This document shows positions 5,978 through 54,545 of a stretch of 64,000 nt of DNA, piece by piece. Under the pieces are notes generated by a model, which saw only the letters and a program-made list of their open reading frames with translations, did no database searches and was not told the origin of the DNA. Source of the DNA: Acidobacteriota bacterium (lineage in GTDB: Bacteria > Acidobacteriota > Thermoanaerobaculia > Gp7-AA8); assembly GCA_021325515.1 (NCBI GenBank), contig JAJPHC010000057.1, forward strand, positions 1 to 64,000, given 5' to 3'. The stretch's first letter is position 1. Each line of letters starts with the position of its first letter. The position numbers were made by a program, and so were the translations under genes.

Positions 5978-5990
5978 TCGAGGTGGCCGC

Positions 5991-18639: not shown

Positions 18640-18641
18640 CC

Positions 18642-19421: not shown

Positions 19422-19429
19422 AGACACCT

Positions 19430-20803: not shown

Positions 20804-20809
20804 CATTCC

Positions 20810-21562
20810 ATGATGCGCTACGTCGATGCTCACTGCCACGTCGACCAGTACCCCGATCCGCGTGCGGAAGTGGGCGCTTGCGAGTCCGCGCAGACATACA
20901 CGATCGCGGTGACGAACCTGCCGCGCGAGTTCGTTCGAACCGAGCGACTGTGTGTGGGTCGCAGCTTTGTACGCGCCGCAGCGGGGCTTCACCCTGAACT
21001 CGTCGCCCGTTTCCCAGGCGCGGTCGAGGAACTCCTGCCGCTGCTTGCGCGAACGAAGTATGTGGGCGAAATTGGGCTCGATTACACGCAAGCCTCGCCG
21101 AATGACAGGGAGTCGCAGAGGAAGGTGCTTGCGCGCGTGGTTGCAACCTGTGAACAGCTCGGTGGCCGCGTGCTCACCGTGCACACGAGAAGAGCCGCCG
21201 AGGACGCGTTGGAGCTACTGTGCGATGCGACTAAGAGCAGCATCATCCTGCACTGGTTTTCGGGGTCGATGAAGGTGCTTGCGCGAGCAGTGGAAGCTGG
21301 ATGCTTTTTCTCCGTGAACCCTGCGATGGCGCGATCTACCTCCGGAAGGAAGATCCTTGAAGCAATCCCCGGTGACCGCATCCTTACGGAGTCCGATGGT
21401 CCCTTCGTGAAGCATGGTGGCCGCGAGCTCCATCCTTTCGAGGTGCGAGACGCACTCGGCGAGATCGCACGCATTCGAGGATCCACAGTTGAGGAGTTCC
21501 GGTCCATAGTGCTTCAGAATTTCCGGCGCGCGGTGAGTCTTGGCGGGGCAGAGGACCGCTGA
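20810..21562 (+). CDS. qatD: QatD: TatD-like metal-dependent nuclease
   Basis: A 250-residue TatD-family hydrolase (TIM barrel, two metals). Metal ligands are in the expected order: VDAHCH (His8, His10), GEIGLDY (Glu), LTVHTR (His), IILHWFSGS (His) and ESDGPF (Asp). TatD proteins are 3'-5' DNA exonucleases. The gene closes the Qat operon, 6 bases after qatC. Two adjacent ATGs (20810 and 20813) are equally possible starts. It converges with the minus-strand radC-like gene at 21798. Confidence 0.9.
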   Translation: MMRYVDAHCHVDQYPDPRAEVGACESAQTYTIAVTNLPREFVRTERLCVGRSFVRAAAGLHPELVARFPGAVEELLPLLARTKYVGEIGLDYTQASPNDRESQRKVLARVVATCEQLGGRVLTVHTRRAAEDALELLCDATKSSIILHWFSGSMKVLARAVEAGCFFSVNPAMARSTSGRKILEAIPGDRILTESDGPFVKHGGRELHPFEVRDALGEIARIRGSTVEEFRSIVLQNFRRAVSLGGAEDR

Positions 21563-26400: not shown

Positions 26401-26907
26401 TCCGCCATACGCCAGTGAGCGCGTGGAGATCTCCAGCGTTGCGCCCTGACTCTCGATGAGCCCACCCGACGTTTCGCACGTCCAAACCTCGCCCGCATCG
26501 GGCGGTGTCCAGTAGATGCCATATGGTGGGTTCGTGACGACGAGCGAGTATCCGGTGAGGAGATTTCGGTAATCGAGTAGATCGCCGGTGCGAACGTTCT
26601 GATTGCCGATCGCGAATCGCGCGTGGTCGGCGGCGAGCTGGTCGAGCTCGACTCCAAGCACGTTTGCGCCCGCAGTCTTCCATGGTGTGAGCAGACGTCC
26701 AGAACCGCATGTCGGATCGAGCACGCTAATGCTCTCCGGCCCCTCGGCTGGAATCAGAGGATGTAAGGCTTCGAACAAGAGCTCGGAGAGCCAGACAGGC
26801 GTGAAGTACTGCGCATGTTTTGATTTGTTGAACTGGCGAAAACTGAGTGCGTGATTTGCTTCCCGTCCGGCATACGCGCTGCCGATCGACACGTCGACTG
26901 TAGACAC
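23488..26907 (-). CDS. N6-adenine DNA methyltransferase / SNF2 helicase fusion
   Basis: A 1139-residue protein. Residues 1-300 are an N6-adenine methyltransferase: QYFTPVWLSELLFEA, VLDPTCGSG (62-70) for SAM and NPPYG (126-130) as the catalytic motif. A middle segment links to a SNF2-type helicase: GYEQGGGKT (Walker A, 530-538), DEAQ (706-709) and DRVHRPGQTKP near 1030 (motif VI). Between motifs Ia and II lies an inserted zinc ribbon with three CxxC pairs (645/648, 659/662, 673/676). The GTG start at 26907 is behind ACGAAAGGAGGCACACC. It has no restriction nuclease domain, so it could protect element DNA, remodel replicating DNA, or act in a defence complex. It leads the RadC/DUF2958 operon section. 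Such fusions occur on mobile elements. Confidence 0.85.
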   Translation of the reverse strand: MSTVDVSIGSAYAGREANHALSFRQFNKSKHAQYFTPVWLSELLFEALHPLIPAEGPESISVLDPTCGSGRLLTPWKTAGANVLGVELDQLAADHARFAIGNQNVRTGDLLDYRNLLTGYSLVVTNPPYGIYWTPPDAGEVWTCETSGGLIESQGATLEISTRSLAYGGYLVAIIPTSTFANTKDRFLRETLYTQFDPVFQATIPDLFTEEYGIQVEVDVVIARRASRGYGDAWRTTPLTIDRDDAPGHLRYELSRALSGAAKLPVSTHTPVPVLSRLLAVTASSAVRVTPKGLRAAADVEGLLNFIDETVEAFDPVRGIEHGIVSATLSPASLLTLGPRAGVESLAWLGFDPAISEVDLAKITRLQERFRILKTPIYPPEAHQRLAYLEDRSYTAKASISIEGEPCFTSGKQYHIRPSWIRNRETASVETVWDEREGKEVQLITSVDRGYLSFQIVTDSGPRTFREVDAADVENLTTAFELPDVPDLGTVVPSRVKQHRNVVARTAPFLFPFQQEDVARLATKPFGYLGYEQGGGKTVTSAAWARIRGFKRVLVVCQSSLVENWLNELRQFGFAAQRLTTHHAVDAIQREKRRRLLPSDTQFYITSFEFLSLTGARVYDEWSCQTFTKDGLIDHAVTDNIKAACTICKRSYDDVVRACPKCGEVPEWTGGHCNGCGYQAWSASRDGRQWPAYKRVKKLFSAVLVDEAQLAKSKNTLRGRAVRAMKPKGKLILTGTLMKGFAHDIFWNVAWLLGFDNPLFPYAYRGGTKRFLAEFSTVQFVSRQFEDTLHEGRGKILPEVSNLNRFWRLMASFTIRRRKDDIYVLPPKERQIILLDLDDAHRNLYAGYAEWAQNAIAKALREGDGNPNMGIISGALWKLRYAATCPVAVDYLDRGALDAVTWNKLEKIRQLVRTAADRGEKAIVFSGLRTMVGAIVRHLRQHGLPVLPITAEVPTKKRFGLIQEFSRSPDVPAIVASLNCLNRGFTITAANHVILVDLEYSPEATEQAEDRVHRPGQTKPVYISYLLSRDTIDQLMHEILVQKAEAIRHAIDGKARFEDVAEILKRVTGDVQLEIAKRIQMLPVITPDIPLQPLGSTAIIIPETSSLITLDERLDSQTPRIAAAVEQLSLFGALFGSGL

Positions 26908-38966: not shown

Positions 38967-39112
38967 TCGCCGCCATTTCCCCGTGAGAGGCGGCTGGGTT
39001 GCGGAGTGACGTTCAACTCCGGCGATCCGTATTTGGGTCCATCACAATTCAATGAAAATTTTTTAGTGGCACCGCTTTGTCGGAGTGGTGTCTCTTCGGG
39101 AGTCGTCTAGCA

Positions 39113-42100
39113 ATGTCCGTTCGTTCGTTTGTTTTCGGTATCCTCACTGTGCTCTTCGTGTCGCCGTTGCTGGCGCAAAATGACCCGTTCACCGTCGGTA
39201 CGCCGCTCACCGCGCAGGGCGTCTTCAGCTGCGGGGATCTCACGGTCTCCAGCGGCACGATCGATTCCAGCGGTGTGACCAACACTGCGATCACGCAACG
39301 CGCGATCATCCGGTCGAATGGGAACGTCAAGGTCTCGGGTGGCACCGTCAACGGCGACGTGATTGCAGGGCCGGGCAAGCTCGTGACGCTGTCCGGAAGC
39401 GGCAAGGTCACCGGAACGACGAGCAGCGCAGCAACCGCAGCGAACTGCATACCCATCGACCTGACCGCACTCGCACCGACGGTGCAGGGGACGAACAACA
39501 ACGCGAACATCCCGCTCACTGCGCAGGGCAAGAACCCGCTAGGCGGCTCGAGCCACACCGAGTTCACTCTGAGCGGTGGCGACGGGATTACGCTTCCGAG
39601 CGGCACGTACTATTTCACGAAGATCAGCATCTCCGGCGGCAGCACCATCACACTCAATGGCACGGTGAAGATTCTCTGCGCTGGCCGCGTCGACATCAGC
39701 GGCGGCAGCATCGTCAACACGAACGCCAGCCCTTTTGCTCTGCGGCTCTGGGTGAGCGGCTCCCCGTTCACGCTGAGCAGTTCCACGCTCTCCGGTATCG
39801 TCTACGCACCGACTGCATCAGCGACTGTCTCCTCCGGCACACTGAAAGGCAGCCTATTCGCCAACACGGTTACTGTCAGTGGGTCGTCGCATCTCACTCA
39901 GATCAACGACGACGCAAACCCACGCGTCACGATCACGAGTCCGGCAGACGGCGCGCTCATCACCAGCCCGTCTGTAACGGTGACTGGTACAGCGAGCGAC
40001 AGCGAGACGAGCGTGACGCTGAGCGTGAACGGACAATCGGTCACCGTCGCTGCCGACGGCACCTTTCAAACGACCGTCAACCTCAGGGGACAAGCGAGCC
40101 CCAAGATCACGGCGATCGCCACTGATGCCGTGGGGAACATGAGCACGACGAGCATCACGCTCAGCGCACCGACACCCACGGTCACGAGCATCACGCCAAC
40201 GAAGGGACCGGTGAGTGGCGGCACCAGCATCACAGTGCTCGGCACGAACTTCACCGACAGCACCGACACAACACTCACCATCGGCGGTATCAGCGCTACA
40301 CAAGTCGCCGTGCTCTCGCCGAACAAGCTCACTGCAGTAACGCCAGCACTCCCCTCGGGAACCGTCAGTGTCGTGGTCACGACGTTCGCTGGCGCAAGCA
40401 CGCTGCAGAACGGGTTCACATACCTCGCCGCGCCGAGCATCACCAGCTTCGCACCAGGAAGCGGCGGCAGCGGGACCACCGTCACGATCGCGGGCCAGAA
40501 CTTCGATCCAGATCCTAACGGGGACCATGTGTTCCTCGGCACGCTCGTTGCGCCAATCGTGAGCGCAACAAGCACGCAGCTCGTGGTGACGGTTCCCACC
40601 GGTGCACAAACGGGAAGACTGACCGTGACCACGGCCGGCGGCACGGCGACGAGTGCGACCGACTTCACCGTTGCGACCTTCTCCGCGTTGCAGATTACCG
40701 CGCCCACGACGACCCTCGATGTTGGCCAGCGCGTGCAGTTCAACGCGATCGGCCTTTTCCCTACCGGAGGAGGCGCCGATGTCACGGCGAAGGCGAGCTG
40801 GTCCTCGAGCGGGGCCGTGACCGTCGACGTGAACGGCATGGTCACGGCTGCGCAACCTGGCAGCGGCGACGTGTTCGCATCACTGAACGGTTTCTCCGCT
40901 TCGATCCGCGTGAGCGCCACGACCATTGTGCTACCTCCAGATCCGGCCAGCATCGCGCCCGCACTGAACCCAACGCAGGTCACTCCGATGGTCGATGGGA
41001 CGGCCTTCCTCTATCAAGGTACGAACCCGATTCAAACCGGCGTCGGGCCAAATGTGATTACCCGCGATCGTGCAGCGGTCTTACGCGGTCGTGTGCTTAC
41101 CCGCGATGGCGCGTCACTGCCTGGCATCAGGATCGCCATTGCATCACACCCTGAATATGGACAGACGCTCTCGCGCGATGACGGCCGCTTCGATCTCGCG
41201 GTCAACGGCGGTTCGTGGTTGACAGTGCGGTACGAACGCCCTGGCTACATTCCGACAGACCGGACGGTGAATGTGCCATGGGCTGACTACGTCAGTGTGG
41301 AAGACGTCGCGCTCGTCTCTCTCGATGGCGCAGTGACGCCCATCGCTTCAGGAGCAACCAGAATGCAGGTCGCCCGCGGGACGACGTCTAGCGACAAGGA
41401 CGGCTCTCGCACCGCGACCGTGCTCTTCCCCGCCGGAACGACGGCGTCGATGACCTTTCCAAACGGTACGACACAACCGCTCGCCACCCTGAATGTACGC
41501 GCGACCGAGTTCACAGTTGGCACCGCCGGTCCGCTCGCCATGCCGGCCGACCTGCCGCCCACGAGCAAGTACACCTACTGCGTGGAACTCAGCGTCGACG
41601 AGGCGGTACGAGGAGGCGCATCGTCCGTGACGTTCTCAAAGACGCTCCCCTTGTACTTGGACAACTTCCTTAACCTGCCGGTCGGCACGATCGTCCCCGT
41701 CGGCTACTATGACCGCGCAGCACGCCGGTGGGTCGCAAGCGACAACGGAAGGGTCATCAAGATCCTCGCGATCACAAACGGCACCGCAACAGTCGATACG
41801 AACGGTGATGGAGTCGCGGATGACGCCACCACCCTCGCAGCGATCGGTATTGACGCGGACGAACTCCAACAACTCGGCACGCTCTATACGATTGGGAAAA
41901 CACTCTGGCGCGCGCCCATCAATCACTTCACGTCGTGGGATTGCAACTTCTTCGCATGGGCTGGACCACCCGAGGGCGCTGAAGCACCGAGTGGTGGACC
42001 AACTCGAAACAACAGAGTCAAGAAGTGCGAGAAGTGTGAGGGCTCGATTATCGGAGTGCAGGATCAGACACTTGGTGAAGAGTTGCCCCTCGTTGGGACA

Positions 42101-45100
42101 GGACTAACGCTGAGCTACAACAGTTCGGAGCAACGCGGACGACTGGACCAATACCAAATCAATATCCCGATTACTGGTGCCAATCCGCCGAGCGGCGTAA
42201 CCTACGCGCATCTCAAGGTGAGCGTCGCGGGCACGACGTTCCAGCAGGAATTTTCTGCGGCACCGAACCAGACCTACACATATACCTGGAGCGGAAAGGA
42301 CGCATACGGTCGTTTGGTGCAGGGAACGCAAGATGCGCATGTCGACATCGGATACGAGTACCTTGCAGGTGCCTACACCGCGCCCGATGCTAAGGGAAAA
42401 GCCTTTGGCAAGTATCCGAACAATCCGATCTCGCTATGTCCAGAACGGCTGTCGATCATTATCTGGACGCGATTTGATATTCCGATCGGCAGCATTGACG
42501 CCAAGGATGCAAACGGCCTCGGTGGATGGAACCTCTCGGGCCATCACATCTACGATCCGTTGGGTCGAACACTTCACCTAGGTGGTGGCGACACGATCGA
42601 TTCCGCTCAACTTGGCAAGACGCTTGTGCGCGTCGCAGGGAACGGTAGCTGCTGCATCGCCGTCGACGGTGCAGGTGCTCGCGAAACAGCACTTAACTAC
42701 TCGAACTCGATTTCCGTTGCGCCCGATGGTGGTTTTTACATAACGCAGAGCGACACCATCCTCAAAGTGCAGAAGGATGGCACGATCGCGCGGATCGGGG
42801 GCATCTATGGAAACAAGGGCTTTTCGCCGGACGGCACGATTGCGCTGAACGCGAAACTCAACCCATGGGCTGGGGCGATCGGACCTGATGGCTTCTACTT
42901 CATCGACGCGGGCACGCGCGTCCGCAAGATCACGTCAGACGGCGCCATCATCACCGTCGCTGGCAACGGGCAAAAGAACGCGGCAGTGAAGGAAGGCCCT
43001 GCGCTCAGCACGCCGATTGTGTGCGAGGCAATCGCGATCGACCATGACGGCAACGTCTACATCGCGAGCGACAGCACCATCGAGCGCGTCACACCAGACG
43101 GCGATCTCACAATCATTGCCGGAGGCGGCGGCTTCGGCAAGATCAAAGACGGTCAGCCAGCACGGATTGCGCCGCTCGTGAATGCGATCAGCATCGCGGT
43201 CGGTCCCAACGGTCGCCTCTACATCGGCGACAACTTCCAGCACTTCATCGGCGAAATTGCAGGCGATGGGTTGCTGCGTGTCGTTGCAGGACTCGGCGCA
43301 AATCCCGATACCGATGGTGTTCCTGCGCGGTCGATTCACATCGACAGCAGCATCTGGGGCATGGATGTCGGCACCGACGGCACGATCTACTTCACGACAC
43401 TCGAAACACAGACCGTGCGCGCGATTCGCCCTGACGGCATTATCGTGCGCCTCGCCGGTGGGGTCCGTGAAGACTTTAAGGTCATTCCGTACCCTGACAA
43501 TGCGCCGGCGATCGGCACCCCAGTCTTTTATCCCTGGGGGGTGGCCGCAGCGCCTGATGGTTCCGTTCTCTTCTCCGCCTACGACGAGAACACGATCCGT
43601 CGGATCCTGCCGACTTATCCCGGCGCCAGCGCGACCGAAACGGTCGTTGCGTCTGAGAATGGAGGACTTGCGTATGTATTCGATGCTTCAGGACGGCACT
43701 CGCGTACCGTTGATACGACCATGGGCATCGTGCTCAGCACCTTTTCCTGTGACGGTGCAGGTCGTCTGCAAAGCATCGCGGATGTCGACGGCAATCAAGT
43801 AACGATCGATCGAGCGACCGATGGCACTCCCAAGGCGATCGTCGCCCCCGGCGGTCAGCGTACGACATTGGCCATCGATGCGAATGGGTACCTGAGTTCG
43901 GTCACGAGTCCCGCTGGCGAAGCGACAAAGTTGACGCACACTTCACGCGGTCTCCTGACAGATCTCGTGACGCCTGGCGGTCACGAGTACTCGTTCACGC
44001 ATGACGCTAATGGACGGCTACAGTTGGATGCCGATCCCGCTGACGGTAGCACAGCCCTGGCACGCACAGGCACGGACGACGATCTCATCGTCACCCGCAC
44101 GACCGCCGAGGGGCGCACCTCGGTTTACGAAACGATCCGGCCCGTGAACGGTGGAGAGATCCGTCGGAACACCAGCGCAGACGGTCTTATGACGACGAGC
44201 AGCGAAGGCGCGGATCGCAGTCTGACCGTGAGCGGCCCCGACGGTACGACGATGAACGTCCGCATGGTGCCCGACAGCCGTTTTGGCATGATGGCCTCGC
44301 TTCCTTCAGTGGGATCCTTGACGATCGGCTCGCACAACGCCGCCGCGCAGTACAGCCGCGCGGTAACGTTGTCGCAGCCGGGCAACCCGTTTGCGGTTGC
44401 CACGCTCCGGGAGACGCTTGCAGTCAACGGAAAGCCATGGTCAACGCTCTATGATCGCGCGGCCTCTTCGCTCACAACCACGTCTCCCCTCGGTCGCAGC
44501 AGCGTCGCCTCAATCGACCCGTCCGGCCGCATCGCCAACATACGAGTCGCGGCTCTCGCTCCCTTCACGATGAGCTACACGACTTGGGGAGCGCTTGAGT
44601 CTGTTGCACAAGGAACGCGCATCACTAACATGACCTACGACGGAGCCCACCGGCTCCAGTCATTGACGGACCCACTGCGGCGGACGATCACCTTCACGTA
44701 CGACGCGGCGGATCGCGTCACAGGAGAAACGCTTCCGGGCGGGCGAACGATCGCTTTCACATACGACCATGATGGCAATCTGACCTCGGTTGCGCCTCCG
44801 TCGAGACCCGCGCACACGTTCCACTACACGCCTGTGAATCTTGCCGACCTATACACGCCGCCCACGGTCACAAACGGTGGCACAACGACATACGCCTACA
44901 ACAAAGACCGGCAACTCACATTGATTACGCGACCCGATTCAGAGGCGATCGGCCTTGGCTACGACTCCGCCGGTCGTCTGGCATCGCTTGTCTGGCCGTC
45001 TGCTGCACTCACCTACGGCTACGACGGAAAGGGGCGGCTCTCCTCGATCAATAACTCGAACGGCGCTTCGATGACCTACAGCTATGACGGCCCACTGCTG

Positions 45101-46678
45101 AAGTCACAGACATGGACGGGCGAGGTCAGCGGGGCGATCGGCTACACATACGACAACGACCTGAGGGTGGCGTCGGAAAACGGCGTGACTCTTGGTTACG
45201 ACGATGACGGACTACTGGTGAAGGCGGGCGCCTTGACGCTCAACCGAGACTCCCAGACCGGATTAGTGACAGGTACAAGTCTGGGAAACGTGAGCGATGA
45301 ATGGACATACGATGAGTTCAGTGAACCAATGACGTATAGCGTATCGCTCAACGCAGCCGAGGCGTTGCGCGAAGTGTACACACGCGATGACATTGGGCGC
45401 ATTGCGCAAGTCGTGGAGACGACTGGCGGACATTCGACCACAACCGCATATACCTACGATGAAGCTGGCCACATGGCGACTGTGACGCGCGACGGCCTAC
45501 AAACAGCCAGCTACACATACGACGCGAATGGTAATCGTGTAGGCGGAACATATGACGATCAGGATCGCCTGCTCTCCATGAACGGTGTCACCTACACGTA
45601 CACGACTAACGGCGAACTGGCTGCGAAAACGGATGCCAGCGGAACGACAAGCTTCACATACGACGCCCTCGGCAATTTACGCACAGTACTGATGCCGGAC
45701 GGCAAGCGGGTCGACTACGTTATCGACGCAAAGAACCGCCGCGTGGGTAAGAAGGTGGGTGGAACGCTCGTCAACGGATGGCTATACGGCGACCAATTGC
45801 GGATAGTCGCCGAAACCGATGGCGCTGGGGCGGTCACGAAGCAGTTCATCTATGGAGCCCGATCCAATGCCCCCTCTGTAATGATCGCAAATGGCATAAC
45901 GTACCGGATCGTAACCGACCATCTCGGCAGCCCGCGATACGTCATCGAGAGCTCGACCGGTACACCTGTCGAGGTGATTACCTACGACGAATTCGGCAAT
46001 ATAACAAGTGACTCGAATCCTGGCATGCAGCCGTTCGGTTTCGCGGGAGGCCTCTACGACCGCGACACTGGTCTAACGAGGTTCGGCGCAAGAGACTATG
46101 ACCCGCAACTCGGGCGGTGGACAGCGAAAGACCCGCTCGGACTAGCAGCAGGAGAACTGGATCTTTACACCTATTCGAATAACGACCCCGTCAACTTCAT
46201 AGATCCATCCGGACTTGAACATGTGAATGAGCCGGGCTTCACCAAACCGATGACAGCTCCAGGGCCACCAATCACCACACTAATTCCGTCCGCCGATGAC
46301 GTCGACAGCATAGCGCGCCACATTAACCGTGGGTCAGTAAGTCTTCCCGGGTGGGTCATTGCGGCGATTTCAAGAGACTATGACCTCGGACCCTGTGACA
46401 CGATTTTCGTGAAGAGCCCAGCATTCGGTAGTTGGAATATTACTTTTGGCAACGTCATCGTATTGACCCCGAAGAGTTTCCATGACACAGCTATCAGGAA
46501 TCATGAGCTGGTGCATGTTTCTCAATATGAGACGCAGGGCTTCGAGTTCTTTATCGACTATGCCTCTGATTCACTCGCCAACGGTGTTCTGAATGGCGAA
46601 TGGCACGATCTAAACCACCATGAAATTGAGGCTGAGCGAAAGGCGGGGAAGCAGGGTCCGACCTGCGGGTGCAAATAA
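39113..46678 (+). CDS. Giant RHS/YD-repeat protein with C-terminal zincin domain
   Basis: A 2521-residue secreted polymorphic-toxin-type protein. Order of parts: signal peptide (MSVRSFVFGILTVLFVSPLL); a beta-helix-like Gly/Ser/Thr-rich region; a bacterial Ig-like domain; two IPT/TIG domains (TVTSITPTKGPVSGGTSITV; ITSFAPGSGGSGTTVTIAGQ); a Big_2-like domain; a regulatory-like beta domain; NHL-type propeller repeats (GPDGFYFIDAGTRVRKITS and similar); and about 600 residues of YD repeats. The RHS core ends YDRDTGLTRFGARDYDPQLG and NNDPVNFIDPSGLE. The last ~155 residues differ and contain HELVH (from 2464), an HExxH zinc-protease site, with HHEIEAE downstream as a possible third-ligand region. The shell would enclose the toxin and the zincin act on its target. 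Confidence 0.85.
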   Translation: MSVRSFVFGILTVLFVSPLLAQNDPFTVGTPLTAQGVFSCGDLTVSSGTIDSSGVTNTAITQRAIIRSNGNVKVSGGTVNGDVIAGPGKLVTLSGSGKVTGTTSSAATAANCIPIDLTALAPTVQGTNNNANIPLTAQGKNPLGGSSHTEFTLSGGDGITLPSGTYYFTKISISGGSTITLNGTVKILCAGRVDISGGSIVNTNASPFALRLWVSGSPFTLSSSTLSGIVYAPTASATVSSGTLKGSLFANTVTVSGSSHLTQINDDANPRVTITSPADGALITSPSVTVTGTASDSETSVTLSVNGQSVTVAADGTFQTTVNLRGQASPKITAIATDAVGNMSTTSITLSAPTPTVTSITPTKGPVSGGTSITVLGTNFTDSTDTTLTIGGISATQVAVLSPNKLTAVTPALPSGTVSVVVTTFAGASTLQNGFTYLAAPSITSFAPGSGGSGTTVTIAGQNFDPDPNGDHVFLGTLVAPIVSATSTQLVVTVPTGAQTGRLTVTTAGGTATSATDFTVATFSALQITAPTTTLDVGQRVQFNAIGLFPTGGGADVTAKASWSSSGAVTVDVNGMVTAAQPGSGDVFASLNGFSASIRVSATTIVLPPDPASIAPALNPTQVTPMVDGTAFLYQGTNPIQTGVGPNVITRDRAAVLRGRVLTRDGASLPGIRIAIASHPEYGQTLSRDDGRFDLAVNGGSWLTVRYERPGYIPTDRTVNVPWADYVSVEDVALVSLDGAVTPIASGATRMQVARGTTSSDKDGSRTATVLFPAGTTASMTFPNGTTQPLATLNVRATEFTVGTAGPLAMPADLPPTSKYTYCVELSVDEAVRGGASSVTFSKTLPLYLDNFLNLPVGTIVPVGYYDRAARRWVASDNGRVIKILAITNGTATVDTNGDGVADDATTLAAIGIDADELQQLGTLYTIGKTLWRAPINHFTSWDCNFFAWAGPPEGAEAPSGGPTRNNRVKKCEKCEGSIIGVQDQTLGEELPLVGTGLTLSYNSSEQRGRLDQYQINIPITGANPPSGVTYAHLKVSVAGTTFQQEFSAAPNQTYTYTWSGKDAYGRLVQGTQDAHVDIGYEYLAGAYTAPDAKGKAFGKYPNNPISLCPERLSIIIWTRFDIPIGSIDAKDANGLGGWNLSGHHIYDPLGRTLHLGGGDTIDSAQLGKTLVRVAGNGSCCIAVDGAGARETALNYSNSISVAPDGGFYITQSDTILKVQKDGTIARIGGIYGNKGFSPDGTIALNAKLNPWAGAIGPDGFYFIDAGTRVRKITSDGAIITVAGNGQKNAAVKEGPALSTPIVCEAIAIDHDGNVYIASDSTIERVTPDGDLTIIAGGGGFGKIKDGQPARIAPLVNAISIAVGPNGRLYIGDNFQHFIGEIAGDGLLRVVAGLGANPDTDGVPARSIHIDSSIWGMDVGTDGTIYFTTLETQTVRAIRPDGIIVRLAGGVREDFKVIPYPDNAPAIGTPVFYPWGVAAAPDGSVLFSAYDENTIRRILPTYPGASATETVVASENGGLAYVFDASGRHSRTVDTTMGIVLSTFSCDGAGRLQSIADVDGNQVTIDRATDGTPKAIVAPGGQRTTLAIDANGYLSSVTSPAGEATKLTHTSRGLLTDLVTPGGHEYSFTHDANGRLQLDADPADGSTALARTGTDDDLIVTRTTAEGRTSVYETIRPVNGGEIRRNTSADGLMTTSSEGADRSLTVSGPDGTTMNVRMVPDSRFGMMASLPSVGSLTIGSHNAAAQYSRAVTLSQPGNPFAVATLRETLAVNGKPWSTLYDRAASSLTTTSPLGRSSVASIDPSGRIANIRVAALAPFTMSYTTWGALESVAQGTRITNMTYDGAHRLQSLTDPLRRTITFTYDAADRVTGETLPGGRTIAFTYDHDGNLTSVAPPSRPAHTFHYTPVNLADLYTPPTVTNGGTTTYAYNKDRQLTLITRPDSEAIGLGYDSAGRLASLVWPSAALTYGYDGKGRLSSINNSNGASMTYSYDGPLLKSQTWTGEVSGAIGYTYDNDLRVASENGVTLGYDDDGLLVKAGALTLNRDSQTGLVTGTSLGNVSDEWTYDEFSEPMTYSVSLNAAEALREVYTRDDIGRIAQVVETTGGHSTTTAYTYDEAGHMATVTRDGLQTASYTYDANGNRVGGTYDDQDRLLSMNGVTYTYTTNGELAAKTDASGTTSFTYDALGNLRTVLMPDGKRVDYVIDAKNRRVGKKVGGTLVNGWLYGDQLRIVAETDGAGAVTKQFIYGARSNAPSVMIANGITYRIVTDHLGSPRYVIESSTGTPVEVITYDEFGNITSDSNPGMQPFGFAGGLYDRDTGLTRFGARDYDPQLGRWTAKDPLGLAAGELDLYTYSNNDPVNFIDPSGLEHVNEPGFTKPMTAPGPPITTLIPSADDVDSIARHINRGSVSLPGWVIAAISRDYDLGPCDTIFVKSPAFGSWNITFGNVIVLTPKSFHDTAIRNHELVHVSQYETQGFEFFIDYASDSLANGVLNGEWHDLNHHEIEAERKAGKQGPTCGCK

Positions 46679-47179: not shown

Positions 47180-47311
47180 CTAGCCGGCTCGGAAGATCCG
47201 ATTCCGCGGATCCTGGTTTGCCCATCCGGCGAGCGCGAACCCGAAGAGGTGTTCCACATCTGCGCTCAGCACCACACGGCTGAGAGCGCGCACCCGGTCG
47301 AGTGGATCCAT
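47180..47311 (-). pseudogene. 3' fragment of a replication-relaxation gene
   Basis: Reading the minus strand gives 43 residues containing LDRVRALSRVVLSADVEHLF and GFALAGWANQDPRNRIF. These match the C-terminal part of the intact gene at 47919-48968 (LDRLRALSRVVLRAGVDHLF; AFTLAGWAHQDPQSAIW). Only this end remains, so it is a partial duplicate or the relic of an older element. The rest of 47041-47494 holds no gene. Confidence 0.7.
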
Positions 47312-47918: not shown

Positions 47919-48968
47919 CTAAGACTGCAAGCGTTGATCGCCGAGGAAAAGCGGACTCTCAAGCAAGTCACCTGCTCGGGACCAGATCGCACTCTGAGGA
48001 TCTTGGTGTGCCCATCCGGCGAGTGTGAATGCGAACAGGTGATCGACGCCCGCGCGCAGCACCACGCGGCTGAGAGCTCGCAGCCTGTCGAGTGGGCGAC
48101 GGAACCGAGGGTCGATGACGGTTACCCAGACATCGAACCTTTCGAAGCCAAATAGCTCCATGCTCAACTCCGGACGCACAGCTAGCTCCGCGTAGCGCTC
48201 AACCTTCGCGCGACTGAAGTGCTCGAGACTCTCGTATCCTCGATCGTGTTCGAGAAAGACGAGGTGGGATCCATCGTTATCTCTGAATACGAATACGAGG
48301 TCGGGTTGTGGCAACGCGAGTCCGGACGATGAATTCGGGAACGGGCGCTCCCATGTTGAAATCCATAAGAGCGCGTTGCCGAATGCCTCGATGAAGCGAA
48401 GCGCGAGGTGATTGCACTCACGTTGGTGCGCAAGGAACGGCGGCACGATCCCGGGTACGAGCTTCAGCGGCTTGCCATCACGGAGCGGCAGCATGAACTC
48501 AACCAGGCGTTGCACCTCGGTGCCTCTGATCAGCGCAAGAATTCTGTCGCGAGCAAAGGCGAGCCCCATATCCGAGGGCATCGCGTAACCAGGATGCCCT
48601 CCTAGTACGACTGGCTCACGCCATGAGCGAATCCAACCTCGATGCTCGAGTAGTCGAAGACGATGACGCGCTGCTTGTTTCGAACGGCCGGCAAAGAAGC
48701 GGCGATGAACCTGCTCGAATGAGAGGAGGCGAAATCGTGCGAGCGCAGTGATGATTTCGAGATCGCGATCGGTCAACGATGTGGAGCTCGCATTTCGTAC
48801 GAGCCTGTTTCGTGGCCTGTTTCCTCTAGACGCAATAGAACCCGCGCTTGCGATGGCGTCCTTACGCGGCTGGACGTCTTCGAGCAGCGCTCGGTCATCT
48901 TGTTGTCTGCGCGCGGTTCGCAGCGTCTCGCGGGAAGATGTTGTGGGATCGAAAGATGATTCGACCAT
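47919..48968 (-). CDS. Replication-relaxation family protein, second copy
   Basis: A 349-residue member of the same family as 15007-15957 but only distantly similar. After a disordered basic N-terminus of about 60 residues comes a winged helix (LTDRDLEIITALARFRLLSF, VHRRFFAGRSKQAARHRLRL, LLEHRGWIRSWREP), then an alpha/beta domain with LPQPDLVFVFRDNDGSHLVF and LEHDRGYESLEHFSRAKVER. The PD...ExD...K spacing suggests a PD-(D/E)XK-like core. It is divergent from the XRE gene at 49172. Each of the two modules in the island thus has its own relaxation protein and DNA-pump ATPase. Confidence 0.75.
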   Translation of the reverse strand: MVESSFDPTTSSRETLRTARRQQDDRALLEDVQPRKDAIASAGSIASRGNRPRNRLVRNASSTSLTDRDLEIITALARFRLLSFEQVHRRFFAGRSKQAARHRLRLLEHRGWIRSWREPVVLGGHPGYAMPSDMGLAFARDRILALIRGTEVQRLVEFMLPLRDGKPLKLVPGIVPPFLAHQRECNHLALRFIEAFGNALLWISTWERPFPNSSSGLALPQPDLVFVFRDNDGSHLVFLEHDRGYESLEHFSRAKVERYAELAVRPELSMELFGFERFDVWVTVIDPRFRRPLDRLRALSRVVLRAGVDHLFAFTLAGWAHQDPQSAIWSRAGDLLESPLFLGDQRLQS

Positions 48969-49092
48969 GATCTTGACAGGATGGCGAACCGAGCGTACAG
49001 GGGGAGGCGAGTCTATGCACTACGTCTCAATGCTCCTGTGGACTTTCCCCACGGAGCCCCCCAGTACGGTCTCTCGTTCGCACAAGAATTCT

Positions 49093-49111
49093 TTGTGGGA
49101 ATCTCCCACAA
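49093..49111. promoter_or_regulatory. Palindromic operator-like site
   Basis: TTGTGGGA ATC TCCCACAA is a perfect 8-bp inverted repeat with a 3-base centre. It lies in the divergent region between the relaxation gene (48968) and the XRE regulator (49172). A weaker related sequence, GTGGACTTTCCCCAC, lies about 55 bases upstream. This is a likely binding site for the XRE protein encoded next door. Confidence 0.45.
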
Positions 49112-49171
49112 CGCATCGATCCGCCTCGCGAATCGATCGTGACTTGGCCAGGATGGCCGGTGTTAACCCGA

Positions 49172-49900
49172 ATGACGACCGTGTCTCGTTCCATCCCTCT
49201 CATGCACGAACTCGAACGGCGTGCCCGCGCGCTCGGTTGGACGTGGGAGCAGCTCGCGCGAGAGCTTGGGATGGATCGGACGACGCTCGCGCACATTCGG
49301 AGCGGACGTGATCGCGTAAGCCTCGCCACGCTCCACAAGGTCGCACTCTGGTTCCCGAACGATGAGACGCTGAAGCGGCTTGCGTGGGAGTACCTGCTTC
49401 TCGACGTGCAATCCGTGAGAGAACGCCGCGCGCGCGAGCAGTCCTGCAGCGGGACAAGCGAGGCGTACGCTGCGCAACTCTCGACGACTGCTCGCGAACA
49501 GCTCCAGCGCTTCGTCGGTGAATTCGGATCGCATGTGATCCGCGGGACTGGCCTCTTCCTCGAATCCGCCGATGCCCTCGCGCTAACAGCGTCGCTCGCA
49601 TTCCTCGAAGCGGAGTTCAGTGCGCGGAGCATCCATATAGTTCGTGAGAGAGGCAGCGCGAAGGTTCCGGCGAGCGCGAAGAGATCGCTCATTGCGATCC
49701 CGCTGCTGCTCATCGATCGCGTTGAATTCGCGTCGCCGTCGATGGCGCAGCTTCTCGCGGAGCGGCAGCAGTTCGGGAAGGTCACGGTTGCGACACGCCT
49801 TGAGAACACGCCCCGGTCCGAGACGGAGCAGCTTCTCGAAAGGCGGATGCATCACGCACGCATTGATCCCGCCAATCCCACCGTTCTCACCAATGCCTGA
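49172..49900 (+). CDS. XRE-family HTH protein
   Basis: A 242-residue protein. HTH at about residues 11-60: MHELERRARALGWTWEQLAR, LGMDRTTLAHIRSGRDRVSL, ATLHKVALWFP. The remaining 180 residues are helical with Arg/Glu-rich segments (SVRERRAREQSCSG, TTAREQLQRFVGEFGSHVIR) and no ligand-binding domain I know. The stop overlaps the start of the next gene (ATGCCTGA). As the first gene of the plus-strand run to 53212 it probably regulates that run, through the palindrome just upstream. Confidence 0.7.
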   Translation: MTTVSRSIPLMHELERRARALGWTWEQLARELGMDRTTLAHIRSGRDRVSLATLHKVALWFPNDETLKRLAWEYLLLDVQSVRERRAREQSCSGTSEAYAAQLSTTAREQLQRFVGEFGSHVIRGTGLFLESADALALTASLAFLEAEFSARSIHIVRERGSAKVPASAKRSLIAIPLLLIDRVEFASPSMAQLLAERQQFGKVTVATRLENTPRSETEQLLERRMHHARIDPANPTVLTNA

Positions 49901-50645
49901 GACTCCACGCAACCAATCGCGGCTGCTCGTGCTTTGGCCTCGCAGCGCGGCGCCGGATGGACTCGTCGTGCTTCCGACAGACCTGCGCGCGTTCTTCCAC
50001 ACCGCGCGCATCATCGGACCCGACACCGCGCTCTTCTTCCTGACACTGCGCGCACTCCGTCAGCGCTCACCGCTCGGAGTTCGTCTCGACGATCTCGCGT
50101 GGACGCTCGAAGCTTCGCGCCGGTGGGTTCGCCGCAGGCTAGTGCGTCTCTCGAACATTGGCCTCATCGTCTTCCACGACACTGGGCAGGATCTCATCGT
50201 TGCCGAATTCACAGGCGAGATGCCGGACCCCGGCGTATTCACGCCGGAGGCGACCGATGTACGGGTCAGGCACGACATCCCGACGCATTGGTTTCTCCAG
50301 GCGCTTCCGCAACTCGGACGGCGAGCGTTCCTTGCATATCTCTACCTCCGCTCTCGCGAAGGCGCAGACGCTGGCGGGGTCCTCATTGCGTCACTTGTCC
50401 GCAACGCTGGTCTGTGGGGAACGCTCCAGGCGCGATTCATCCTCTTTCGGTTGCGTCGCGCGGGACTGATTCGATGGCGGGGGCGCGGCTACACAGTCTT
50501 CGATCCGCCGCCACTTTCAGCGATTGCGCGCATGCTTCTGCGGCTTCGCGAAATGGGAGTGATTCCTCGCACACGGTCCGGCCGAGTGATCGTCGTCGCG
50601 TTGATCATTACGCCACTCATCGCCTTCATCTTCATCCTCTTTTAA
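49893..50645 (+). CDS. Winged-helix protein with C-terminal membrane anchor
   Basis: A 250-residue protein overlapping the XRE gene by 8 bases. It contains two winged-helix-like segments (RLDDLAWTLEASRRWVRRRL, VRLSNIGLIVFHDTG; and LIASLVRNAGLWGTLQARFI, LRRAGLIRWRGRGYTV), which resemble replication-initiator or transcription-factor folds. One membrane helix lies at the very C-terminus (VIVVALIITPLIAFIFILF). It thus looks like a DNA-binding protein tethered to the membrane next to the DNA-pump ATPase; the stop overlaps the ATPase start (TAATG). It could bring element DNA to the pump. That is inference. Confidence 0.6.
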   Translation: MPETPRNQSRLLVLWPRSAAPDGLVVLPTDLRAFFHTARIIGPDTALFFLTLRALRQRSPLGVRLDDLAWTLEASRRWVRRRLVRLSNIGLIVFHDTGQDLIVAEFTGEMPDPGVFTPEATDVRVRHDIPTHWFLQALPQLGRRAFLAYLYLRSREGADAGGVLIASLVRNAGLWGTLQARFILFRLRRAGLIRWRGRGYTVFDPPPLSAIARMLLRLREMGVIPRTRSGRVIVVALIITPLIAFIFILF

Positions 50646-52081
50646 TGATCCGTATTCCGCTCGCCTTCGAGACGCGACACTCCCGATCGCGCTTTGCGAT
50701 GCAGGACTTCTACCGAAGTCGCGATCTGTTCCTGCACGAGCAATTGCGAAGGAGCAACAACGGCCTCCCATTCGCGCTATACAAGGCGCCCGACGGGAGC
50801 AAGATTGACTGCTGGCTCACTCCCGTCGACCTCCGCCAGCACTCACTGGTCATCGGCGCGACCGGCAGTGGAAAGTCGACGCTGCTCGAAGCGATCGCGA
50901 GATCGTGCTTCATGCGTCATCAGGGGCTCGCGCTCATCGATCTTCACGGCGACCTATTCAGGCGCACGGCGGCGTGGGCGTCCTACCATCGCGTTCGCGG
51001 GCTCGCCCTACTCGATTTCACGCGCCCTGAGACCATTTCCGGATGGAACCCGCTCGCACGAATTCCGGGAGTCGATGTTGGGCGGCACGTTGGGCTCATC
51101 ATCGACGTGCTCAAGCGGCTCTACAGCGCCGAAAACGCAGCGTCGTGGGCCTGGGGGGTGAAGGTTCACGAACTGGCGCAGCACGCGCTCGCAGCCTGCA
51201 TCGAGAGTCGCTACCAATCGACGCTTCTCGACGTTCCACGCTTCTTCGCCTCACCACATTTGCGGCGCGAGATTCTCGCGACGGCATCAGCAGAGTCGCA
51301 GAGTTACTTCAAGACGCGTTTCGGTCTGCGGGAAGAAATGTATGTATCGGCGTTCCTCAACAAGATCGAGCCTTTCCTCTCTTCGCCGAGCGTTGCGAGT
51401 TTCTTCGGACAGGCAACGTCCTCCGTCGACCCGTTCCGAATTGTCGAAGAAGGCGGCACCCTGCTCATCAACCTCGCCAAGGGATACCTCGGTCCTGCCG
51501 CTGAGATCCTCGGTCGATTGCTCATGAACGTCCTGCAACTCGCAGCGCTCTCTCGCGAGAAAGTGCGCGCTGATCGGCGGGTGCCGTTCTCGATCATCGT
51601 CGATGAAGCGCACAGCGTCGCCGCGCGTGAGAGCGGGCTCGAAGACCTGCTCACAGCCGCGCGCAAGTACAAAGTGTTTTTGACGCTCGCTGCACAGAGC
51701 TTGTCTCTGTTCCCCCCGCAATTTCGTCCGCACTTGCTTGGCAATACTTCACGCCAGTTCTTCTTCAGGATGCCGTACGTGGAGGCGCGACTGCTCGCGC
51801 ACGATCTCTTCGAGCCGCTCGGCACATTTCGACGCGAGGCCATCCGACCCTACGATTCGCTCGATGATCCGCTGCTCACGCCGGCCGAGGAGATTGCTGC
51901 GCGGACGAAGGAACTCGCGAACCTCCCGGTGGGCGCGTGCTACTGGCTCCTCAAAGGCCGCAGGTTCAAGGGACGCAGGATTCAAGTGAAACGTCCCAAG
52001 CCACTCGGCAGCATCGCTGACGCGGAACGTACCTCTGAGGCGAATGCGGACTTCGAACGCCATTACATTCCGATCGAATAA
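50645..52081 (+). CDS. TraD/VirD4-like DNA-pump ATPase, second copy
   Basis: A 478-residue ATPase of the TraD/HerA-FtsK group. Walker A is VIGATGSGKSTLLEAIARSC (about 79-90 for the loop), Walker B FSIIVDEAHSV, and a QSLSLFPPQ segment provides the sensor. ALIDLHGDLFRR and NPLARIPGVD are typical of coupling proteins. There is no N-terminal membrane helix; the preceding tethered protein may anchor it. Only distantly similar to the 11518 ATPase. The recombinase gene starts immediately after the stop. Confidence 0.8.
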   Translation: MIRIPLAFETRHSRSRFAMQDFYRSRDLFLHEQLRRSNNGLPFALYKAPDGSKIDCWLTPVDLRQHSLVIGATGSGKSTLLEAIARSCFMRHQGLALIDLHGDLFRRTAAWASYHRVRGLALLDFTRPETISGWNPLARIPGVDVGRHVGLIIDVLKRLYSAENAASWAWGVKVHELAQHALAACIESRYQSTLLDVPRFFASPHLRREILATASAESQSYFKTRFGLREEMYVSAFLNKIEPFLSSPSVASFFGQATSSVDPFRIVEEGGTLLINLAKGYLGPAAEILGRLLMNVLQLAALSREKVRADRRVPFSIIVDEAHSVAARESGLEDLLTAARKYKVFLTLAAQSLSLFPPQFRPHLLGNTSRQFFFRMPYVEARLLAHDLFEPLGTFRREAIRPYDSLDDPLLTPAEEIAARTKELANLPVGACYWLLKGRRFKGRRIQVKRPKPLGSIADAERTSEANADFERHYIPIE

Positions 52082-53212
52082 ATGCACTCAATGGTCAATT
52101 CAATCCATGAGACCCCAATCAACGACATGGCGGCGATGCCACTTCCGCTGCCGCGTGCCGGCGGCAGACATCGCCAGGGTGCCGAGGCAGGCTGGGTCAT
52201 CGCATCAAGTAAGGGTGCGTTCCTCGCTCCTCGCACGATACCGCTCGCGTTCCCGTCACTTGTGCACCTCGATGACGCCGTCGTGAAGGCGCATGCGCGG
52301 ATGCGCGCGATCGAAGGGCTGAACGAAGCGACCGTGCGATGGACCGGAACGTCATATCGGATGTTCCGCCGCTTTCTCATTGCCGACGCGAAGTACCGAA
52401 ATGGATTCCTCGGTGGCGAATTGGAAGCGCAGATGCGCATCCTTGAAGCATGGATCGGATGGCTGCGGGAAGACGGGCGGACAAGTGTGACCGTCAACAA
52501 CTACTGGCGGGGACTGTCACTCGTATTCGCAAGGATCAATCGTGAACGTGGCATGGTGAACCCGCTCATCTTTCTCGCTGCTCCAAGATTCTCTCGCCGT
52601 CAGGCGCGCTACCTCACACGTGATGCCGCGGAGCGAGTCGTCAAGTTTGTACAGCACCACCAGTGGAGCTCGTCATTCGAGCAAGCGCGCAACCTCGCAA
52701 TCGTCGGACTCCTTCTGCTCGCGGGACTCCGTCGTGCGGAGGCGGTGCGATTGAATTTTGCGCACGTCTCGGTGGCGAACAGCACGCTCCTGATCGTCAA
52801 GGGGAAGGGGCGCTATGGCGGGAAAGACCGTACGTGCTACATGACCCCGCAGCTCCGCTCGATCCTCACCAGCTACGAACAGCAGCGCAGGGGTCTCGAG
52901 ACCGCGAGCCCTTCCTACCTGCTCACGGTGCACGGCGATCGGGGGATCTCCGCCGCCGTGATTCGCCATCTGCTCCAACGCGTCTCCGAAGCGCTGGACC
53001 TGCCGGTCACGCCGCACGCTCTTCGCCACACGTACGCAACGCTGCTCCGGCAGTCAGGTGTCGCGGATCGCATCTCAATCGACCTCATGGGGCACACGAG
53101 CCTCGAGACGCTCCAGCGTTACAGCCACGTCTACAGTGGCGAGCATGCCGCCGCGGTCGAGAAGGTGATCCTCGACATCGAGGTTCCGAGTCGAGACGAG
53201 CATCAGTGGTGA
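52082..53212 (+). CDS. Tyrosine recombinase (plus strand)
   Basis: A 376-residue XerD-like recombinase. N-terminal core-binding domain (TVRWTGTSYRMFRRFLIAD, LEAWIGWLREDGRTSVTVNN), then the catalytic domain with LLLAGLRRAEAVRLNF (Arg), IVKGKGRYGGKDR (Lys region), TPHALRHTYATLL (His-x-x-Arg), LMGHTSLETLQRYSHV (His and nucleophile Tyr). It starts directly after the ATPase stop, so it is the last gene of the 49172-53212 operon. It would act on the element ends together with, or instead of, the convergent recombinase at 53274. Confidence 0.88.
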   Translation: MHSMVNSIHETPINDMAAMPLPLPRAGGRHRQGAEAGWVIASSKGAFLAPRTIPLAFPSLVHLDDAVVKAHARMRAIEGLNEATVRWTGTSYRMFRRFLIADAKYRNGFLGGELEAQMRILEAWIGWLREDGRTSVTVNNYWRGLSLVFARINRERGMVNPLIFLAAPRFSRRQARYLTRDAAERVVKFVQHHQWSSSFEQARNLAIVGLLLLAGLRRAEAVRLNFAHVSVANSTLLIVKGKGRYGGKDRTCYMTPQLRSILTSYEQQRRGLETASPSYLLTVHGDRGISAAVIRHLLQRVSEALDLPVTPHALRHTYATLLRQSGVADRISIDLMGHTSLETLQRYSHVYSGEHAAAVEKVILDIEVPSRDEHQW

Positions 53213-53273
53213 GTTGGATCGTGCACATAGGCGTTCTTCATTGGCGCAACAGGCAGAGTGGTGCACCGAAAGG

Positions 53274-54320
53274 TTAGGAAGTGAAGTGCAGCTTCCGAAT
53301 TTCGCGCTGACGGTCCTCGTCGAAGATCGTCGTATAGCCGAGCGTCGTTTCAATGCTTGCGTGACCGGCGAGGTCACGAACGATTGCGAGAGGAACCCCA
53401 GTTCGGATGAGTTGCGTGACGAAGCTGTGCCGGAGAACATGGGGAGAGAAGGGCACGCCGGATGCGCGCGACACTTTCCGGACGATGTCTCGGAGCACGC
53501 CGTCGCTGAACGGGCGACCCTTGACCGGGGACACGAAAAACGCCGGAGACGTGAGGCGTGCCCGGTCCCGAGCTGCGACGTACGATCGGAGCACACGAGA
53601 CAGCTCCGGGGCGATAAAGACCATCCGGTCCTTCCCGCCGTACCGCCCCTTCCCCTTAACGATTCGGATCAATCCGTCATTGAGGTCGACGTCGGTGTTC
53701 GTGAGGCGGAAGATCTCGCCCTTTCGGAGTCCTGCGTAGAGCATTGTCGCGAGAACGGCGAGCGCCACCTCGCGCTGCATTTCCGTCGGCCACGGATAGT
53801 TGCGCGCAGTGTGAAGAATGGCGGAGCAGTCTTGCGCGGACTTGGCCCGCGGTGCGGGTGTCCGTGCCCTCGGGGTGTGTCGCCCGACGAACGGATTCGG
53901 CGAACCATTCACGGCCGCACGGTCGATGAAGAACGTGCGCACGCTCCGCCAGTAGTTGTTCATCGTGATCTCTGCGAGCCCGCGCTTGGTGTTCCACGCG
54001 ACCCAGTCTTCGAGCGCGTGGAGACGTAGCGCGAATTGCTCTTTGGGGAGATCAGCAGCCGTGAGGAGGAACTGCTGGAAGTTCGCGAATCCGTTCGTGA
54101 ACCAGGAGAGCGTGAACTTGCTGTAGCGCTTCACGAACTCAGCGCGATCCATGAACGCTGCGAACTCCGATCGGAGGTCATCGATGAAGCGCAGATTCTC
54201 CGGCGAGGCGGGTGGCAAATTCTCCGTATTTGCTGCTCGTCGCGACCTCTTTTTATTTGGATGTAGAGGAGGTGGGCCGAACACCGGAGTGTGAGAGGTG
54301 GAGTAGGGAGACCGGGACAT
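53274..54320 (-). CDS. Tyrosine recombinase (minus strand)
   Basis: A 348-residue tyrosine recombinase. Core-binding domain (KFTLSWFTNGFANFQQFLLT, ALEDWVAWNTKRGLAEITMN), catalytic domain with MLYAGLRKGEIFRLTN (Arg), IVKGKGRYGGKDRMVFI (Lys region), FSPHVLRHSFVTQLI (His-x-x-Arg), LAGHASIETTLGYTTI (His, Tyr). It shares the IVKGKGRYGGKDR block with the 52082 recombinase and is clearly related. The N-terminal 30 residues are basic and disordered. It reads away from the tRNA-like 3' half at 54476, the usual position for the integrase next to its own attachment site. Confidence 0.88.
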   Translation of the reverse strand: MSRSPYSTSHTPVFGPPPLHPNKKRSRRAANTENLPPASPENLRFIDDLRSEFAAFMDRAEFVKRYSKFTLSWFTNGFANFQQFLLTAADLPKEQFALRLHALEDWVAWNTKRGLAEITMNNYWRSVRTFFIDRAAVNGSPNPFVGRHTPRARTPAPRAKSAQDCSAILHTARNYPWPTEMQREVALAVLATMLYAGLRKGEIFRLTNTDVDLNDGLIRIVKGKGRYGGKDRMVFIAPELSRVLRSYVAARDRARLTSPAFFVSPVKGRPFSDGVLRDIVRKVSRASGVPFSPHVLRHSFVTQLIRTGVPLAIVRDLAGHASIETTLGYTTIFDEDRQREIRKLHFTS

Positions 54321-54388
54321 GGGGGTAGGGGGGAGAAAATGGCGTCCCCATCATCCAATCACTCTGTAGTATCGCGCGCACGCCACCA

Positions 54389-54475: not shown

Positions 54476-54545
54476 AGCGGGTAGCGGGGATCGAACCCGC
54501 CTCTCAAGCTTGGGAAGTCTCTGCCACTCCCATGCAAGGCCGCTT
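54476..54545 (-). other. tRNA-Gly-like 3' half (right attachment site candidate)
   Basis: On the minus strand the 3' part is canonical: anticodon loop TTCCCAA (CCC), 3' anticodon strand GCTTG, T arm GCGGG-TTCGATC-CCCGC and acceptor strand TACCCGC followed by T. The 5' part is not a tRNA: GCGGCCTTGCATGGGAGTGG, then CAGAGAC, recalls an acceptor and D arm but is too short and does not pair. Joined at the shared TTCCCAAGCT to the 5' half at 5548, it would make a nearly canonical tRNA-Gly(CCC) with five or six acceptor pairs. The two halves face each other on opposite strands. Confidence 0.5.

Follow-up and report, generated by a model that had tools for sequence, protein, structure and literature searches.

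What is the function of a compact gene cluster that encodes a relaxase-like protein, a membrane-tethered DNA-binding protein, a DNA-pumping ATPase and two tyrosine recombinases, in a genome without VirB4 or VirB10 genes? This question is raised by a locus of an Acidobacteriota bacterium (class Thermoanaerobaculia; GenBank assembly GCA_021325515.1), of which we analysed positions 1 to 64,000 of contig JAJPHC010000057.1 (hereafter the window). The cluster, termed here unit 2, occupies positions 47919-54320, and a reading of the window made from its sequence alone (the sequence-only reading) had proposed that it embodies a split coupling-protein design. From our analysis we consider it about an even chance that unit 2 serves as a mobility module for integrative mobilizable islands of this class, in which a tandem winged-helix protein (WH) and an ATPase (ATP2) would together form the split coupling protein.

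Organization of unit 2

All six open reading frames (ORFs) of unit 2 are present where the sequence-only reading had placed them, and belong to the families that it had named. RR2 (47919-48968, reverse strand), a Replic_Relax protein resembling MOBC relaxases (PF13814, e-value 1.4e-12; phrog_9381, 'replication initiation by nicking', 3.5e-5), is encoded divergently from a run of four forward-strand genes. These comprise an XRE-type helix-turn-helix protein (49139-49900, with its start at GTG 49139 or ATG 49172; HTH_3, 1.9e-8), WH (49893-50645), which shows weak winged-helix matches and ends in a C-terminal membrane anchor (VIVVALIITPLIAFIFILF), ATP2 (50645-52081; T4SS-DNA_transf, 3.7e-6; DUF87, 6.1e-6), a coupling-protein/HerA-like ATPase without N-terminal membrane helices, and TR1 (52082-53212), a XerC/D-like tyrosine recombinase (Phage_integrase PF00589, 1.1e-22; XerC model, 1.9e-30). 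The convergent TR2 gene (53274-54320, reverse strand) encodes a tyrosine recombinase paralogous to TR1 (PF00589, 6.5e-26). As read from the DNA, the XRE and WH frames overlap by 8 nt (ATGCCTGA) and the WH and ATP2 frames by 1 nt (TAATG), whereas ATP2 and TR1 merely abut (TAA directly followed by ATG, 0 nt); the earlier description of this order as fully overlapping therefore holds for the first two junctions and was slightly too strong for the third. On its left the unit is adjoined by a 2533-aa Rhs/YD-repeat-like protein (39077-46678, forward strand), recognized from its translation with no family search made.

Conservation and linkage of the genes

A protein search of 148 genomes of the class recovered nine close copies of ATP2 in seven genomes (52-100% identity), including the window genome, in which the gene is single-copy; the remaining matches in the class were only 26-35% identical. 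In a sample of 297 genomes from the phylum, ATP2 matched at 1e-8 in 22, and close copies were found in only three, the window's own among them. The WH gene occurs at eight places in the 148 genomes and adjoins a close ATP2 gene at every one of them, whereas the ninth ATP2 copy (G300) sits at the very start of a short contig, which cuts off the WH side. The neighbourhood search that had been suggested as a check thus found WH and ATP2 together rather than scattered. The XRE-WH-ATP2 order is kept in 8/8 loci with sequence present, TR1 follows ATP2 in 8/9 loci and TR2 comes next in 8/9; this gene order is not a matter of chance. XRE is present in all eight islands examined, and its frame overlaps that of WH in seven of them, the exception being G168_C45, where about 1.9 kb lies between the two. 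By tblastn, all six genes occur together in 6/9 loci (the window, L052, L053, L055, L056 and L057); L058 is without RR, L059 without TR1 and TR2, and L054 is cut. In two loci (G168_C36 and G406_C54) both recombinase genes point the same way rather than converging.

L058, on contig G406_C54, contains a natural deletion at about 21.7-23.1 kb, which fuses the ATP1 side of a second cluster (unit 1, described below) to the unit-2 XRE gene. This deletion removed both Replic_Relax genes, and its flanks are about 93-95% identical to G168_C36. Distant ATP2-like ATPases (24-33% identity) were also observed on contigs of metagenome-assembled genomes of Patescibacteria/Candidate Phyla Radiation (L061, L063, L064, L065, L066, L067, L069 and L071).

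The ATPase and its membrane-anchored neighbour

ATP2 possesses the Walker motifs GATGSGKST and IIVDEAH, and scores 26.5 bits against PF02534 (cut-off 20.1), with a nucleotide-binding domain of the group that includes type IV coupling proteins (T4CPs), HerA and FtsK. Searches of solved structures with its profile matched IcmO/DotL (3.8e-7), HerA (1.2e-6) and TrwB (6.2e-6). Only about 60 residues lie ahead of Walker A, and a Kyte-Doolittle scan of eight copies detected no membrane segment at the N-terminus of the ATPase itself, as the N-terminal hydrophobic stretch of the G029 copy precedes the aligned start, in an extended part of the ORF; one internal hydrophobic stretch was also found among the copies. 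ATP2 is hence devoid of the N-terminal membrane domain that typifies VirD4/TraG-type proteins. The same kind of scan revealed a C-terminal hydrophobic anchor in all eight copies of WH (scores 1.62-3.19), and WH is the sole membrane protein of the operon. In a low-confidence AlphaFold model of WH (pLDDT 52), an HHH-beta-beta unit occurs twice ahead of a C-terminal helix, an order of helices and strands that could tentatively be read as a pair of winged helices followed by a terminal helix.

The split coupling design thus stands with respect to the tail anchor, the helix-less ATPase and the constant adjacency of WH and ATP2, whereas we infer the contact between the two proteins and the transfer of DNA. 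In the literature, deletion of the membrane domain is described as inactivating the coupling proteins MobB(CloDF13), TrwB and PcfC (PMC7431656), which argues that a helix-less ATPase needs a partner. Coupling ATPases lacking a membrane domain can act with small membrane proteins (PMC7434980), and the combination of a helix-less coupling ATPase with such a partner is not new in principle.

The Replic_Relax protein

RR2 scores 48.5 bits against PF13814 (curated cut-off 25.3), and consists of an N-terminal winged-helix-like part and a C-terminal part with a PQPD...EHDR...E...K...Y motif. The residues P222-D223, E240-H-D242-R, E246, K255 and Y259 are invariant in the seven aligned RR2 copies, and may include catalytic residues of the PD-(D/E)xK type. 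The Pfam model of PF13814 gave 13 matches in six of the seven genomes, all of them on contigs with unit 2, and misses copies that a custom profile detects, such as that on G303_C179. In a table of streptococcal integrative mobilizable elements (IMEs) this family is filed as the CONJscan MobC relaxase (PMC5357655); MOBC relaxases are described as related to restriction endonucleases, and their member TraX as having an N-terminal winged helix (PMC12857230). Furthermore, in an Embleya plasmid a VirD4-type gene is followed by a PF13814 gene (2.7e-36), within a cluster resembling a type IV secretion system (T4SS) that includes a PrgI-family gene. We accordingly predict from its sequence that RR2 is a MOBC-type relaxase with nicking activity. 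A second Replic_Relax C-terminus is found about 0.6 kb to the left of the intact gene (47183-47305, reverse strand); its 42 residues are 71% identical to residues 292-333 of RR2, with 83% DNA identity over 98 nt, and it was left behind either by a duplication or by a previous unit.

Recombinases and half-tRNA genes

In a tree of 21 recombinases, the TR2 proteins (support 100/98) and the TR1 proteins (84/86) form sister clades (98/98), and the integrases of the islands described below fall into a separate group (100/99). Some branches of this tree were flagged as long, and the placement of the G406_C13 TR1 is unsure. With respect to the question of whether TR1 might be a relaxase of the MOBM type (TcpM/MobK), we noted that it keeps the recombinase motifs GLRRAE and HALRHT and the C-terminal tyrosine. 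The sister pair differs in its surroundings, as TR2 has an attachment-like site in the form of half a tRNA gene and TR1 has none. In the window it is a 3' half, which extends from the anticodon loop of a tRNA-Gly(CCC) gene as far as its acceptor end (54477-54520, reverse strand; pattern scan). Such a half lies directly upstream of TR2, and on its strand, in 8/8 loci, as against 0/8 for TR1 and 0/7 for ATP2; random windows contain one in 0.9% of cases (0.07 expected in eight), and the pattern matched 38 times outside intact tRNAs in 1,124,123 bp. It should be noted that these halves, which Rfam and ARAGORN miss, were detected by custom pattern scans, the rules of which were fixed when the first examples were already known.

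Five loci contain 3' halves (Gly-CCC in the window, Thr-GGT in G309, His-GTG in G029, Ala-TGC in G406_C13 and Thr-GGT in G168_C36) and three contain 5' halves (Thr-GGT in G406_C54, Arg-GCG in G168_C45 and Pro-GGG in G300), with isoacceptors read by eye from the anticodon loop. All of them break in or beside that loop. Where both are known, the isoacceptor of the half differs from that of the tRNA at the island end, except in the window (both Gly-CCC). Given their presence in all eight TR2 loci and their mostly different isoacceptor, the half-tRNAs seem to be TR2's own attachment site, at present unused, and TR2 is probably the integrase of this site. The half-tRNA at 54.5 kb was ruled out as the end of the island itself, as the island ends in relatives are other tRNAs. 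Derivation of the halves from a tRNA of the present host was likewise not supported, the Thr(GGT) pattern in G168 being found only beside TR2. Immediately 5' of the TR2 start codon there is also a C-rich tract (about 54321-54345, reverse strand), a pattern that matched in 5/8 loci.

Islands, tRNA ends and unit 1

Scanning of whole contigs showed that unit 2 sits, in these soil-type bacteria, within larger islands ending in tRNA genes. Both ends were mapped in four islands of 44-68 kb with tRNA repeats of 45-48 nt, namely those of G029_C19 (746-51325; tRNA-Ala CGC, 48-nt repeat), G168_C36 (65540-116355; tRNA-Pro GGG, 45-nt repeat), G406_C13 (7069-74659; tRNA-Met CAT, 45-nt repeat) and G309_C14 (44.1 kb; tRNA-Pro GGG, 45-nt repeat); an end repeat was sought in G168_C45 and none was found. 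These four islands combine an integrase with flanking attachment repeats, as is characteristic of IMEs. The integrase concerned is represented in the window by the gene at 5940-7166 (forward strand; PF00589, 2.9e-29), which belongs to the separate clade noted above, and a gene of this type adjoins the intact tRNA in G309, G168_C36 and G029. The islands thus enter tRNA genes through an integrase other than TR1 or TR2. As for the window island, only its left edge is clear. The left edge is marked by a 5' part of tRNA-Gly(CCC) (positions 1-42 of the tRNA; window 5548-5589, forward strand), which matches exactly the intact gene found at contig position 121510. Beyond this intact gene the contig carries two displaced 3' parts, one at 122955 and one at 126342, and with the repeated 5' part at window position 5548 the stretch G000:C13 121510-126372 is a crowded integration hot spot.

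The sequence-only reading had regarded unit 2 as parallel to a first unit at 11 kb, and the ATPase of that unit, ATP1 (11428-13152, forward strand; 13 places in 11/148 genomes), indeed shares the island with unit 2 in six of the eight islands examined. It is followed by a small protein that combines zinc-ribbon cysteines with a single membrane segment (13350-13661, forward strand; cluster 9, 6/8 islands), whose hydrophobic segment reaches the threshold in 5/6 copies, and by the Replic_Relax protein RR1 (15007-15957, forward strand; PF13814, 6.4e-8), found by clustering in 5/8 islands. A more distant ATP2-like ATPase is encoded on one contig with ATP1 in G302, G303_C179 and G270. An XRE gene was dropped from unit 1, as its signal came from a single fused ORF in G406_C54. 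A broader proposal, which we hold to be doubtful, is that a single island carries two sets of relaxase and coupling ATPase, both having a small membrane protein of their own as partner (WH in unit 2, the membrane zinc-ribbon protein in unit 1), together with two independent tRNA attachment systems, one used and one free, and no mating pore; the DNA-reading part would then also be the membrane anchor, and insertion could occur at either of two tRNA targets.

Two further features of the islands may be recorded here. A complete QatABCD-like anti-phage set is encoded at 16813-21562 (forward strand; QatA 1.4e-71, QatB 2.6e-5, QatC 1.2e-91, QatD 5e-73), and a 1139-aa protein combining an N6-methylase with a SNF2 helicase at 23488-26907 (reverse strand), the latter also being present in the G029 and G406_C13 islands (3/8).

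Proposed mechanism and alternative explanations

If unit 2 is a mobility module, RR2, of the MOBC type with a restriction-endonuclease fold, would nick an origin of transfer (oriT), and the XRE protein would control the divergent promoters. WH would bind the DNA of the element through its two winged-helix domains and, being tail-anchored, keep that DNA at the inner membrane, and the helix-less ATP2 would dock on WH and pump, such that the two together do the work of one VirD4-type coupling protein. We infer a division of labour between the recombinases, in which TR2, with the paralogous TR1 as its partner, would excise and insert the element, with the anticodon loop of a tRNA gene as the target site. 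The pore would come from a helper element, unless it belongs to a type that goes unrecognised.

Several observations weigh against this interpretation. None of the seven host genomes contains VirB4 (PF03135) or VirB10 (PF03743), the genes that would mark an integrative and conjugative element (ICE) with a T4SS (other pore types were not searched, and control searches of 14 known genomes gave matches in 1 and in 2 of them), and therefore no helper is at hand. The same absence means that the standard T4SS gene set that would have spoken against the sequence-only reading was not encountered. RR2 is missing from G406_C54, where the deletion joins unit 1 to unit 2, and its position falls outside the cut G300 contig; G303 keeps RR, XRE, WH and ATP2 and is without TR1 and TR2 beside the unit. 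The AlphaFold models of RR (pLDDT 44) and WH (pLDDT 52), built from two-row alignments, are poor, with no Foldseek match at E <= 0.001. No relative of the RR profile was found among solved structures, and in the CloDF13 record, where the mob genes are broken into pieces, none matched PF13814. A TcpA mutant without its membrane domain is described as still transferring, at reduced frequency (PMC7431656), and hence a tether is not always needed. Finally, PF13814 also occurs in phages and is counted among plasmid replication families (PMC8563766), which makes a role in replication possible.

Such a role, in which RR would initiate replication of the excised circle under the regulator XRE, with WH and ATP2 as a segregation motor, would fit the description of phrog_9381 and the listing of PF13814 with plasmid replication families (PMC8563766). 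However, an actinomycete plasmid has this family inside a T4SS-like cluster and the IME survey files it as MobC (PMC5357655), and we consider a replication or stability module quite improbable. Rather less improbable, though still unlikely, is a machine akin to FtsK-Xer, with ATP2 and the tethered WH as a split FtsK that moves double-stranded DNA, unites TR1 and TR2 at the attachment sites and activates them, for excision or resolution rather than transfer. FtsK itself recognizes DNA and contacts XerD through its gamma domain, a winged helix. The genes of ATP2 and TR1 abut, the sister pair TR1/TR2 lies near the XerC and XerD models, and FtsK-type and HerA profiles fit ATP2 about as well as T4SS ones. 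Yet such a machine has no place for the adjoining Replic_Relax gene, and the four genes are kept in G303 in the absence of both recombinases. The absence of VirB4 and VirB10 would also be expected if WH and ATP2 pushed DNA out without any T4SS, in the manner of Streptomyces TraB or of TdtA from the Thermus ICEth1, with uptake by the competence system of the recipient. TdtA is reported to be an ATPase of the FtsK/HerA superfamily found partly in the envelope fraction, its ICE ends in a tRNA-Ile repeat, and the process reportedly needs no homologues of a T4SS or relaxase (PMC5365140). Against such export, which we think improbable, the two relaxase-like genes per island suggest strand-specific processing, and a NurA-type nuclease was not seen in the operon. 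A role of unit 2 in anti-phage defence was set aside as unlikely, as PADLOC gave only generic P-loop and helix-turn-helix matches (for ATP2, mad8 at 1.7e-16 and HerA) and no partners. A viral origin was rejected, given that the ATPase had only distant matches (17 phage records at E <= 1e-5 with 24-28% identity, and 11 viral contigs at 22-30%) and the scan of viral contigs with RR gave none.

Relationship to known systems and implications

The mobilizable island that combines a MOBC relaxase with its own coupling ATPase is already known as a type. CloDF13 (MOBC1) similarly has a restriction-endonuclease-type relaxase, MobC, with its own coupling protein, MobB, and no pore genes (PMC7431656, PMC7434980), but MobB unites the ATPase with three N-terminal membrane helices in one protein, whereas here ATPase and anchor are separate genes, in an integrated island that usually carries two sets. 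In TraJ/TraI of pIP501, and also in T4CPs that need the membrane protein TraJ, a helix-less coupling ATPase is likewise thought to use a small membrane protein (PMC7434980); the partner in unit 2 differs in being tandem winged-helix-like and anchored by its C-terminal tail, in genomes without VirB4 and VirB10. ICEth1 of Thermus thermophilus resembles the present islands as a tRNA-gene island with an FtsK/HerA-superfamily ATPase that has no secretion signal, and no T4SS (PMC5365140), and its operon has a NurA-like nuclease and a restriction enzyme in place of the Replic_Relax protein, WH and the recombinases. Mesorhizobium tripartite ICEs also have several integrases and attachment sites on one element (PMC5882170), but no island split over several chromosomal places was seen here. 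The winged-helix oriT binder TcpK, the tyrosine-recombinase-like relaxase TcpM and the FtsK-like ATPase TcpA of pCW3 from Clostridium perfringens offer a comparable set of folds (PMC6137059, PMC12857230). In unit 2, however, TR1 and TR2 keep recombinase motifs and a Replic_Relax relaxase is present. TcpK, unlike WH, is not known to be membrane-anchored.

What is new here is that the winged-helix anchor is a protein of its own, that the sets are doubled and that there is an apparent second tRNA site. We found no description of this unit in the open-licence literature, which is weak evidence of absence, and little in such print on the movement of gene islands in this phylum. If the mobility-module interpretation is true, WH and ATP2 would constitute a minimal two-gene coupling protein, with DNA recognition and membrane attachment united in one separable protein, and simply removing a gene would then suffice to test docking. 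The half-tRNA next to TR2 offers a sequence marker by which attachment sites not in use, and former hosts of such islands, can be traced.

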